Both the position numbers and the translations under genes were made by a program. The notes below the pieces were generated by a model. The model was not told the origin of the DNA and did not search any database. It saw only the letters and a list, made by a program, of their open reading frames with translations. This document shows, in pieces, positions 13,088-47,998 of a stretch of 64,000 nt of DNA. The stretch is from the NCBI GenBank assembly GCA_037893245.1, contig JBAIAA010000669.1, positions 1,302,001-1,366,000 on the forward strand. The letters run 5' to 3'. This DNA is from Crossaster papposus. Lineage: Eukaryota; Echinodermata; Asteroidea; Velatida; Solasteridae. How positions within the stretch are numbered: the first letter of the stretch is position 1; each line of letters begins with the position of its first letter.

Positions 13088-16000
13088 CTAGATTTGTGAG
13101 TGGCAGAGAGGGCAGGTGCTAGCGGTGCGTATCTCGCTCTCGTAGGCACGATGCTTACAGGTGTCACACATCCAGAACAGATTGTCCATGATGGGGCGGC
13201 CAGTCACAATGCAGGTAGGAAACTTGGTATCGCAGCTTGCACACATGGAGGACCTGAGACGAAACGGGAAAAAAAAACCACACAGCTTCACAAAATGTGA
13301 CCTGCGGCCAATTTCACACAAAAATGTAACAATTCAGCAACCCGTCCACGACTGCTTGCATTCACACGTGTATCAACTGAAAGTCGTTGCATTATCTTCT
13401 CGTTAAAGACGAATTTCGGACTCGAGTTATGAGAGTTTCCAGAAAGAAACACATTAGAAAAGATTTCTGATACGTGGGGTGTGCTACCCACAGATGCCGG
13501 CCTGAACCCGTCTCGGATCGAGGTTCGTGAAGAACAATTCCGCGCCTGGGCCCGGTCAATGTCAAATGATTGTATACAGCCTAGATTCGAGATACATGTA
13601 CAAGTTTTCTTACCAGTCTGGTAGCATCGTCTCACAGTTGGGGCATTCGGACTTGTTGGTGCGTGAATCTTTGGGAGCATGTCTGACGAAGAAAAAAAAA
13701 CAGGATCGAGACATCACATACAATTGTGCATAAAAGTTTGTTTATAGTCCAGTTATTGAACTAAATCAATCAAAAGGTAACTTAACCCTTGCTCTATGAG
13801 AGTTGTTTATTGCATGTCAGTGGTACATGCCAATGCACTCCAGTTGTGTACATAAGAAAATAAATACAGGCATTTTTTTAGGTGAATATTAAAGTGCGTT
13901 TGAAGGTAAACTCTTGTTTAGCGAGGGTTAAGTCGTGGGTTATTAAGTCGTGTTCCCAAAGAAGGATGTGATTTCAACAAAAGCTTCCAAAACCATATCC
14001 AAATTCACAAATTAACACAGGATGTGAATTTGGAAGAGGATGTGAAATTTGACGAGGATGTGAAATTTGAAGAGGATGTGAATTTGGAAGAGGATGTGAA
14101 TTTGGAAGAGGATTTGAATTTGGGAGAGGATGTGAATTTGGAAGAGGATGTGAATTTGGAAGAGGATCTGAATTTGAAAGAGGATCTGAATTTGGAGCAT
14201 TTGGATGTGTATGTCCGCTTTGAATGCAAAACCACATCATGCCCATTCTAAAGTAAGGCAACTTACTTGGTGAATATCTCCAGCGCCAGTGCCTCATAGT
14301 GCTCCTGTTGTGTCGGAGTGAGTGCCTCCGTGGACTCCAGCTTGATGAAGGCCTTAGAGCAGGTACCGAAGGCCCTGTTAGCGCAGGCTGCTAGACCCAG
14401 CAAGGAGTAGATGTCGACTGGATCCAGGATGTCATCGTATTCGCGCAGATGGAGGGCCGTCTTCATGCTGGCATCAACATAACCTAAATTGGGACAAGGC
14501 ATTGATACACATGTACACTGGTAATTGGGTCATTCCCCAAAGTTAGAACACCATGTCTTTGTTACGTCTGAAGCCTGTTGTGAGGCCATTTCAGTACATC
14601 TACACATCACTACACAGTTTTGCTATGCATGCTGTTTAAAGGTAGCATACACCATTGGTAATTGCTTGAATTGTCAGGAATGGGTCATCCACCCATTCCT
14701 GATAATTCATAATGATTAATTCATAATGGAGCTATGGAGCTCTATTATATACCAAATGAAAGCTTATGTTGGGTTTTCTAACCATATATATAACTTCATT
14801 TCAACATTTTTGTTGGCAATATAATACCCATTTTCTGGAGTGGGTTGCATTTATAGTGTACATTTATGGTGCACATGGATAGTCCATGGTCTACCATTTT
14901 CTCACCCAAACTATGGAATTGCCAAAGACAACATCACTGCAGAAGAGTTTAGAATCAGACAAAGCCATTACCTTGATACAGCTGCCTCTGAGCCAGTAGG
15001 AAGAAGTGGACCGCCTCGGCCCCTCTCCAAGCATTGTCAATGATCTTGGTATCGGAACTAGCCATAGCCTCTTCCTCTAGCAGACCGGCTAGGGCCGAGG
15101 CCGCCTGCAAGAAGCAATCAATTAACAGTGATTCACAAAAATGCTACTAAACACGAGCAGGGTGTGATTTCAACGAAATATGTCGAAAATCACTTCACAA
15201 AGTTTCAAATTCACATCCTCATCAGTCCAAGTTCACATCCTGGGTCAAGTCGTTAAAATGCAAAATTCACATCGAGGAGATTTAGTGCCAAGTAACAATG
15301 AATTTTTATTGTTAGTGCCGCGTGTTTCGTTTGTTAGATTTTCATAGTAAATGCATCGTTTTTACAAACCTACCTCAGCCTTCTTCTTAGACTTTGCTCT
15401 CAATCGTGAGGACAGCTTCATCTGTTCATGGTAGCTCTCAACCTAGGTACAGGAAATCAAATGTGAATGAAGAATTGTGTCTTCCCACCCCAAGAGTCAC
15501 TGCCTTCAAGTTTCATAAAAATCCACAAAAGCGTGTAGAAGTTATACACTTTTTTTCAAAACTTACAAAACCCCAAGATATGCCAAGAACCCATATTCAA
15601 AATTCATGTAGAAGTACAAGTTATTCCCAGGAGCTGTTTGAGGTATTTATGAATATTGGTTTTATCTTACAACCTACCATCAAGGCACCCAGGACATACA
15701 ACTTTTTCGTTCTCAGTGGTTTTAGCTTCTTTTTAACATTCTCTTCTGCAATCTGTTTGGAAGACAAAAACATATTGAGAGTTTGAGATTTTGCTACCAC
15801 TCAAACTTAACATGAGTTTGGCAGCCTCAACAAAGTGACTGACCTTCTGGAAAAGCTCTACTACCTGCTGCTAATGGAATAACGGATTGAGGGTTTGGGA
15901 ATTTGAAGAGTCCCGCCACCACTCACACTAAACATGAGTTTGGCAGCCTCAACGAAGTGATTGGCCTTTCAGTAGAGCTCTACTGCCTGCAGCTTATGAA

Positions 16001-45531: not shown

Positions 45532-47998
45532 ATGGTTGCGTCAAAAAAACAGGTAAGAAATCATCGTAAAAATGCATGAGCCAGGCAGTGTGTGTTGTAC
45601 TTGTGTGCGTGTGAATGGGATTCGGGCAGGGTCAACTTATTTTGTCGCGGTTGTGTAGCCCCTCTTAAATGTTGTTCCAATTCAATTCAAAGGTGGGTTT
45701 TTTTTACCATTCCAAAATGACTTTACTTCAGGTTGATATACTTCGCTCAACTCTAATGACACAATTTGTAAAAAAAAATTGAGTAGGCCTATTTTTTCGA
45801 CTGGTGATTCTGTGATTTTCTAGCCCGTATTGCGGTTAGTGTTTTGGCATTTGGCAGATTTGCTTGTTTACTGTGCATTGCGGTGGTCGCAATTGTTTAT
45901 TTTCATACTGGTCGTGTAGATGAAACAGCGCCCTCGCATTCTCAATACGAATAATAACATTATGCTCATATGTGTCAATAGAGGGCGCCATGCTGTTTTG
46001 GGTAATCAATAAAAATTGGCAGCCTTCAACATTCCGGTTGGGATGAATAGGCCTACACGTGATTTGCTGAGCACGGGAATTTTTGGAGCGGGTCAACTTC
46101 AATTGCCACATCTTGCTTAAAAAAATTGGTGTAATATCTTAAACTTGGCAAGTGACATGCTAAGTTGTAACCAAAGCGTTTTGAGGCACTGTTGTGTGTG
46201 GGTGTTGGTTTGCCAAATCCCGAATAAAAAACCTCTAAACTAATTTTGCACGTTTTCAGTCACAGGCTCTGTCTGACGCCTAACATGCATGCACACCTTG
46301 GGATAAGGGTCGATGTTTGTTACAAGTTTGAAGTCATTGCAAATGACATTGTCATTGGTTCTGAGCAGAAGAAGCAGATGGAGAGTATCCACTCTCGCTT
46401 GCAGCAGCAAGTACCATCTCAGCTTCAAGCAAACCCTGAAAGCCTTCCTTGGCATAAGGGTTGATGTTTGTTCCAAGTTTGAAGTCATTCATTCATATGA
46501 CATTGTCATTCTTACTGAGCAGATGGAGAGTATCCACTCTCGCTTGCAGCAGCAAGAACCATCTCAGCTTCAAGCAAACCCTGAAAGCCTTCCTTGGCAA
46601 AAGGGTCGATGTTTGTTCCAAGTTTGAAGTCATTCGTGTATATGACATTGTCATTCTTACTGAGCAGAAGAAGCAGATGGAGAGTATCCACTCTCGCTTG
46701 CAGCGGCAAGTACCATCTCGGCTCAAGCAAACCCTAAAAGCCCTCCTTGGGATAAGGGTCGATGTTTGTTCCAAGTTTGAAGTCATTCATGCATATGACA
46801 TTGTCATTCTTTCTGAGCAGAAGAAGCAGATGGAGAGTATCCACTCTCGCTTGCAGCAGCAAGAACCATCTTAGCTTCAAGCAAACCCAGAAAGCCCTCC
46901 TTGGGATAAGGGTCGATGTTTTTTTCCAAGTTGGAAGTCATTCATGCATATGACATTGTCATTCTTTCTGAGCAGAAGAAGCAGATGGAGAGTATCAACT
47001 CTCGCTTGCAGCTGGTGATGAAGAGCGGCAAGTACCATCTCGGCTTCAAACAAACCCTGAAAGCCCTCCGTCAAGGAAAGGGAAAACTGGTCATCCTAGC
47101 CAACAACACGCCACCACTCAGGTAAATATATTAACCCCAACCCCTTAGGTACTCTTACTAGAAAGGGCCCCGAATCTGCCATCAGAATCCACAATTAGGA
47201 TTAATTCGTCAGTCGCACCACGAAATGACGTATCGTGTGCACAAAGACAATGGAAGATCCGTCACATTATGCACCCTTCTTCAAATACTGTTGACAAATC
47301 CACATTATGCGTGAACAGGTTAGGTTTTTGAGCAATTCTTGTATCGTTCTGATTCGTTTGGCTACAGGAAAAGTGAGATTGAATACTACGCCATGTTGGC
47401 CAAGACTGGTGTCCATCACTACACTGGTAACAACATTGAGCTGGGTACAGCGTGTGGTAAATACTTCAGGGTGTGTACGCTCTGCATCACAGATCCAGGT
47501 AAGGAGCGGTAATATCCATAGAGCTATATTCAATTACTAGAACGCTGGGCGCATTCATGTTTGTGCACAATCTCTAAACATTGTACATCAATTTGCATAT
47601 ATCACAAAAACAAAACTCTAACCAATGTTGGCCTTTTCCATGGTGTTTGACTTTTCCATAAATGCGAACTAACACAGGCATAACTTAACAAAACTTGATT
47701 TGAGGCGGGTTCGGGCCGAAGGTACTGGAAAGCACACCTACGCATTTCAGGCCCTGCTCGCTGCTGACAGACATTTACGGCCTTGCTCGTGAGGTTTTGA
47801 ATCTGTGGGGAAACTTTGCGTGTATATACATCCTCCGGTGCGAACTGGTTAACGGGATTTCCGACAGAAGTGCAACGAGAATTTGTTAAGATAGAGCAGG
47901 TGAGCATGTTGTGTAAACAATTTCTGGAATGTTTGTTTTATTGTTTATATTTAGGCGACAGTGACATCATCCGCAGCATGCCCTCCGCAGAAGCATAA
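45532..47998 (+). CDS. RPL30: RPL30, large-subunit ribosomal protein eL30
   Basis: Coding exons 45532-45552, 46976-47121, 47368-47498 and 47955-47998 (TAA) join in frame to 113 residues; human RPL30 has 115. The protein begins [19 protein letters not shown], continues [76 protein letters not shown] and ends [14 protein letters not shown]. This is the L7Ae/L30e fold component of the 60S subunit that binds kink-turn RNA. The coding part of exon 2 sits in an exon starting at 45505. The gene is head-to-head with WDR35 and converges on TUBE1. Exon 3 is preceded by four degenerate copies of its own 5' end (46301-46900); these carry a frame-breaking deletion, so the authentic exon must be the one used. 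Confidence 0.98.
46301..46975 (+). repeat. Four tandem pseudo-copies of RPL30 exon 3 5' end with acceptor (~150 bp period)
   Basis: Units begin GGATAAGGGTCGATGTTTGT near 46301, 46451, 46597 and 46749; the one at 46902 leads into the real exon. Each contains TGACATTGTCATT...TGAGCAG, the true acceptor context, then the exon start AAGAAGCAGATGGAGAGTAT and about 80 bp of exon. Exon-like starts are at 46369, 46523 (missing the first AAGAAGC), 46668 and 46821; the real one is 46976. All four share replacement of 17 exon bases after CTTGCAG by CAG or CGG, a net 14-bp loss that shifts frame, so they derive from one altered ancestor. Confidence 0.95.

Follow-up and report, generated by a model that had tools for sequence, protein, structure and literature searches.

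Four exons of two adjacent genes in this sea star are flanked, on their intron side, by tandem copies of a segment that runs across the exon-intron boundary. This raises the question of whether a process in this genome turns splice boundaries in particular into minisatellites, as the first-pass annotation had proposed, or whether boundaries are duplicated no more often than other non-coding points. We addressed it in a window of 64,000 nucleotides (the whole stretch of DNA that was analysed), taken from a eukaryotic assembly that has 1841 contigs and totals 1.02 Gb, and at further loci outside it. The features concerned are the following:

13088..45110, minus strand: WDR35 (IFT121), 25 coding exons (gene model with splice sites)
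15770..16340, minus strand: exon 19 donor array, unit about 122 bp (TRF, edge BLAST)
23975..24505, minus strand: exon 12 donor array, unit 130 bp (TRF, edge BLAST)
29821..30100, minus strand: exon 9 donor array, 28-bp minisatellite (TRF, edge BLAST)
45532..47998, plus strand: RPL30, coding exons 45532-45552, 46976-47121, 47369-47497 and 47956 to about 47998 (sequence reading and scripts)
46296..47060, plus strand: RPL30 acceptor array, unit about 153 bp (TRF, edge BLAST)

The WDR35 model has AG and GT at all inner edges and encodes a product of 1184 aa, whose residues 1-1183 were matched by a solved WDR35 chain at 1932 bits. Among the proteins listed, the closest were those of sea stars (Patiria miniata, 97% identity; Acanthaster planci, 95%; Asterias rubens, 90%), and identity to the amphioxus Branchiostoma lanceolatum was only 74%; we therefore rejected as host an amphioxus, the group in which published cases of such duplications would place it. 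Since the model aligned to P. miniata isoform X4 with zero indels, its coding sequence is intact and its exon edges are very probably the working ones. A search of intron 10 with one pattern did not find a 21-base alternative exon matching a 7-residue insert of P. miniata. The divergently transcribed plus-strand gene at 45532, which we take to be RPL30, likewise has an intact coding sequence, judged from its sequence alone. The array is borne by its second coding exon, whose end at 47121 was set by eye; with a 5' untranslated exon included in the numbering, this is exon 3.

The window contains several other repeats and features. The intron that separates WDR35 exons 4 and 5 contains a long inverted repeat (36357-39222) with the appearance of a foldback-type element: its 467-base arms are 97% complementary, 1932 bases lie between them, and it includes nested inverted and direct repeats. 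Tandem repeats of about 150 bases at 5791-6653 and 7276-7617 contain tRNA-like box sequences by eye and may be tandem copies of tRNA-derived short interspersed elements; ARAGORN called no tRNA in either. The stretch 7616-11357 is occupied by large tandem arrays in two blocks, with about 20 copies of a 142-143-base unit, and open frames on the plus strand at 1-1000 resemble, by eye, the C-terminal part of a helicase.

TRF and BLAST of the exon edges located four tandem arrays with a unit across the splice boundary, at the donors of WDR35 exons 9, 12 and 19 and at one RPL30 acceptor, just as the first-pass annotation had described. At exon 19, the authentic donor GT lies at 16279 and decoy donors at 16172, 16050 and 15926, that is, 107, 229 and 353 bases beyond it, with sites reading GTGAGT or GTGGGT; one further copy is degraded, and array copies comprise 56-59 exonic and 6 or more intronic bases by edge BLAST. 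The exon 12 array has its authentic donor GT at 24446 and decoys at 24316, 24186 and 24056 (130, 260 and 390 bases away; GTGAGT in all three), with copies covering 59 exonic and 28 intronic query bases. In RPL30, the authentic exon start at 46976 is preceded by decoy acceptors at 46369, 46523, 46668 and 46821 (607, 453, 308 and 155 bases upstream), and copies cover 37 exonic and 28-30 intronic query bases. Exon 9 is the weak case: a 28-bp intronic minisatellite begins beside the authentic donor (30087) and separates it from a single distal decoy (29844, 243 bases off), and the far copy alone has exonic bases (11 exonic and 24 intronic). Copy numbers from TRF were 4.7 for exon 19, 4.1 for exon 12, 4.7 for RPL30 and 8 for the 28-bp unit of exon 9. 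The best edge-spanning copy had an E value of 1e-10 at exon 9 and of 1e-24 to 1e-31 at the other three; these copies are not chance matches. Edge BLAST was thus positive at 4 of the 54 inner coding-exon edges of WDR35 and RPL30, and found no such copy at the remaining 50.

The first-pass annotation knew no standard name for this design, which corresponds to the "mirages" of amphioxus, a term coined for Adh3 in a 2002 study, as papers citing that study relate. Three features of a mirage were found here: the copies are tandem and minisatellite-like, the unit spans the exon-intron boundary, and the authentic exon and coding sequence are intact (WDR35 by comparison with P. miniata, RPL30 by reading).

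Next, we looked for the design at other loci, in a small and non-random sample of kinase, myosin and dynein genes. It comprised 62 kinase loci (30 cut automatically and 32 hand-chosen partial matches, out of 134 matches) together with 6 myosin and 5 dynein stretches picked for compactness from 91 and 114 matches, respectively. An edge was assumed wherever the profile match stopped inside the domain, so that some kinase matches may merely fade out; some sampled matches contain stop codons, and related or paired loci were kept in the count. Edge positions could be off by up to 40 bases in kinase loci or 48 bases in myosin and dynein stretches, a leniency that works in favour of positives. On contigs C701, C282 and C359, about 30 or more kinase-domain matches with near-equal scores, mostly spaced by ~6.7 kb, look like a large recent tandem gene array.

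Three of the 189 further edges carry the design, one of them borderline. A kinase acceptor (L062, contig C222) has two copies 113 bases apart at 97% identity, with 53 exonic and 44 intronic bases, and a myosin acceptor (L073, C907) has two copies 129 bases apart at 98%, with 31 or 63 exonic bases depending on the AG chosen. The borderline case is a myosin donor (L075, C423) with 32 bases copied at 91%, 27 exonic and 5 intronic, which we kept though it is one base short at the exact edge, where 6 intronic bases were required; an additional intronic stretch is repeated there at another offset, and this array is older than the other recurrences. A further locus flagged by the tolerant edge rule (L072) was rejected by the exact-edge rule, its array ending about 7 bases short of the exon. 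These three cases, read directly, show that the design also occurs beyond the window.

Several sampled loci resemble one another across contigs (L043/L044, L033/L040, L029/L030, L057/L058 and L051/L067), with aligned parts about 88-98% identical. These pairs are probably both haplotypes, although some may be paralogues. Intronic arrays differ in copy number or presence between some pair members: a 139-bp intronic unit is present in 1.9 copies in L043 and 2.9 in L044, and L057 has a 124-bp duplication that TRF did not find in L058.

Whether edges are hit preferentially depends on how often any non-coding point is. We therefore took each non-coding point, in either direction, as a mock edge, and scored it when a tandem copy spanning it lay in front and none behind (offset 20-500 bases, length at least 30 bases, identity at least 78%). 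Because points inside long arrays got counted in a first pseudo-edge control that lacked the front-only condition (124/600; 142/700), that control was discarded. Local tandem copies make up a quarter of the window, and under the strict rule 2679 of 58,114 point-directions in the WDR35-RPL30 span pass (4.6%), 2045 of 54,372 when the four arrays are taken out (3.8%), and 3169 of 57,200 in the window flanks (5.5%). The four positives among 54 true edges thus compare with 2.0-3.0 expected (P(≥4) 0.15-0.35); a looser BLAST rule set the same 4/54 against 38/700 intronic pseudo-edges.

Outside the window the comparison was similar. Among kinase loci, 1 of 87 edges was positive against 3386 of 336,690 points (1.0%; control computed without L002-L008), or against 25/900 under the looser BLAST rule. 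Three of 56 myosin edges were flagged and two kept on reading, with 1.1 expected from a background of 1011/49,764 (2.0%), and the dynein stretches gave 0/46 edges against 194 of 9,679 points (2.0%). This amounts to 3/189 edges outside the window with 2.9 expected (P(≥3) 0.56), and to 7/243 over all edges (95% interval about 1-6%) with 5.0-5.9 expected, a ratio of 1.2-1.4 with 95% intervals within 0.5-2.9 (P(≥7) 0.23-0.38). Leaving out the borderline myosin donor gives 6/243 and a ratio of 1.0-1.2, with intervals within 0.4-2.6. Neighbouring points are not independent in these figures, and part of the sample consists of related loci. We found no clear edge excess even though the edge tolerance favours positives, but since the point estimate exceeds 1 and the interval tops reach 2.2-2.9, a modest preference for edges is possible.

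These rates bear directly on the first-pass annotation, which had proposed a general process acting on splice boundaries and had named a rate no higher than background as evidence against it. Recurrence stood, on both the acceptor side (L062, L073) and, with the borderline L075, the donor side. The boundaries as a target did not: on 243 edges rather than genome-wide, the edge rate matched the non-coding rate of the same stretches, with room for a modest excess.

We consider it likely that the arrays arise by tandem duplication that is neutral and that, where it happens to cross a splice edge, is tolerated by selection. Near-gene non-coding DNA in this sea star would often gain local tandem duplications of roughly 20-200 bp, presumably through replication slippage or unequal exchange, and some of these may expand into minisatellites. 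Duplications wholly within exons would alter the protein and be lost. Where a duplication crosses an edge, normal mRNA should still come from the splice site nearest the exon, and we propose that selection tolerates the extra copies for that reason; the decoy, now intronic, would decay, and further copies may then arise from decoys. The molecular mechanism, the neutrality and the premise that splicing normally ignores decoys are what we infer here. Because edges in this sample are hit about as often as other points, the duplications look like neutral by-catch and not like the product of a dedicated process. Against this stand the four edges in the window where 2.0-3.0 were expected and the two of 56 myosin edges where 1.1 was.

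An alternative is that damage linked to splicing or transcription, for example at R-loops or at forks stalled at exon edges, preferentially duplicates boundaries. Donors and acceptors are both hit, in WDR35, RPL30, one kinase and two myosin genes, and the point estimate lies above background. We nevertheless regard an edge-biased process as unlikely, given that the excess is not significant overall or outside the window and that no dynein edge was positive.

The decoys themselves suggest how the arrays grew. At exon 12, five exonic differences in 59 columns are common to the three decoys; at exon 19, two differences in 68 columns are common to the three aligned decoys; and in RPL30, three differences in 76 columns and a 14-bp exonic deletion are common to all four. 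These shared changes, which the exon lacks, make a single early decoy the probable origin of each array. The simplest history is probably a single edge-crossing duplication, followed by loss of constraint on the decoy and then by amplification among decoys. Among the matches listed, the exon 12 array had one full-length place in the assembly and its other 39 matches were short, and we rejected a mobile element as its identity on that ground; for the two window pieces searched, the listed matches contained no second full copy.

Arrays of this kind had also been suggested as a source of alternative exons, and selection might retain them as such or as regulators of splicing or dosage. Decoy donors do keep the consensus, as all three at exon 12 illustrate. 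Reading on past the authentic donors, however, meets stops after 7 (exon 9), 10 (exon 12) and 2 codons (exon 19), in each case before any decoy donor. Three of the four RPL30 decoy acceptors reach stops within 60 printed residues; the fourth (46668) is open over all 60 but, at 308 bases from the authentic site, is out of frame, and the 14-bp deletion affects every one of them. Use of the window's decoys would thus bring stops or a frameshift, which argues against alternative coding exons but not against regulated non-productive splicing. A selected function appears quite improbable to us.

Least credible of all is that alleles or reads were falsely stacked in tandem. The assembly does contain probable haplotype pairs, and mirage loci can be misassembled in copy number, as happened in the draft to the amphioxus BflGb6 haplotype 1 mirage before it was rebuilt from traces (PMC3087553). 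The decoys, however, match neither the exon nor each other exactly and yet share derived changes, unlike stacked alleles; three loci on other contigs have similar structures, and WDR35 retains an intact coding sequence. Misassembly of the arrays is therefore unlikely.

With local tandem duplication so dense, edge duplications need no special process. Such arrays offer natural tests of splice-site choice among near-identical tandem copies and can mislead gene prediction. A bolder reading, to which we give little credence, is that mirages are no peculiarity of amphioxus but widespread wherever animal genomes have much tandem duplication. If 7/243 is typical, this genome would then contain thousands of decoy-bearing loci, and splicing or transcription might give exon edges a modest preference, at most about 2.9-fold.

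Comparison with other systems places the arrays among known structures. Intron gain by tandem duplication, as described in the passages available of PMC3443670, resembles them in placing splice sites in new copies, but it takes place within an exon and creates a new intron, whereas here an existing intron appears to grow. Ordinary minisatellites of the same introns have similar unit lengths and copy numbers but a unit without an exon edge. The closest likeness is to amphioxus mirages, as far as the available parts of two papers describe them. In the globin genes BflGb6 and BflGb9, either boundary is duplicated, haplotypes differ in copy number, turnover inside the cluster is reported to be concerted, and RT-PCR by the authors points to normal splicing (PMC3087553); a further mirage lies in PGBD5, with Adh and troponin C mentioned (PMC3902484). 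Unit lengths are similar (BflGb6, 150-160 bp; BflGb9, 157 bp; Adh3, 10-72 bp), as are the involvement of either boundary, the many decoys with AG or GT sites and the turnover within clusters (PMC3087553, PMC3902484, same passages). Apparently normal splicing and somatic instability are among the features of the amphioxus mirages; the starfish arrays were examined as genomic sequence. In the literature searched, which covered few subscription papers, we found no report of an echinoderm mirage, weak evidence of novelty. The present cases differ in their echinoderm host and in that their rate is set against the intronic background, a control absent from the passages available of the two mirage papers (PMC3087553, PMC3902484). 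A little-known amphioxus observation is thereby extended to an echinoderm, and the arrays seem to be a known kind of structure in a new phylum.
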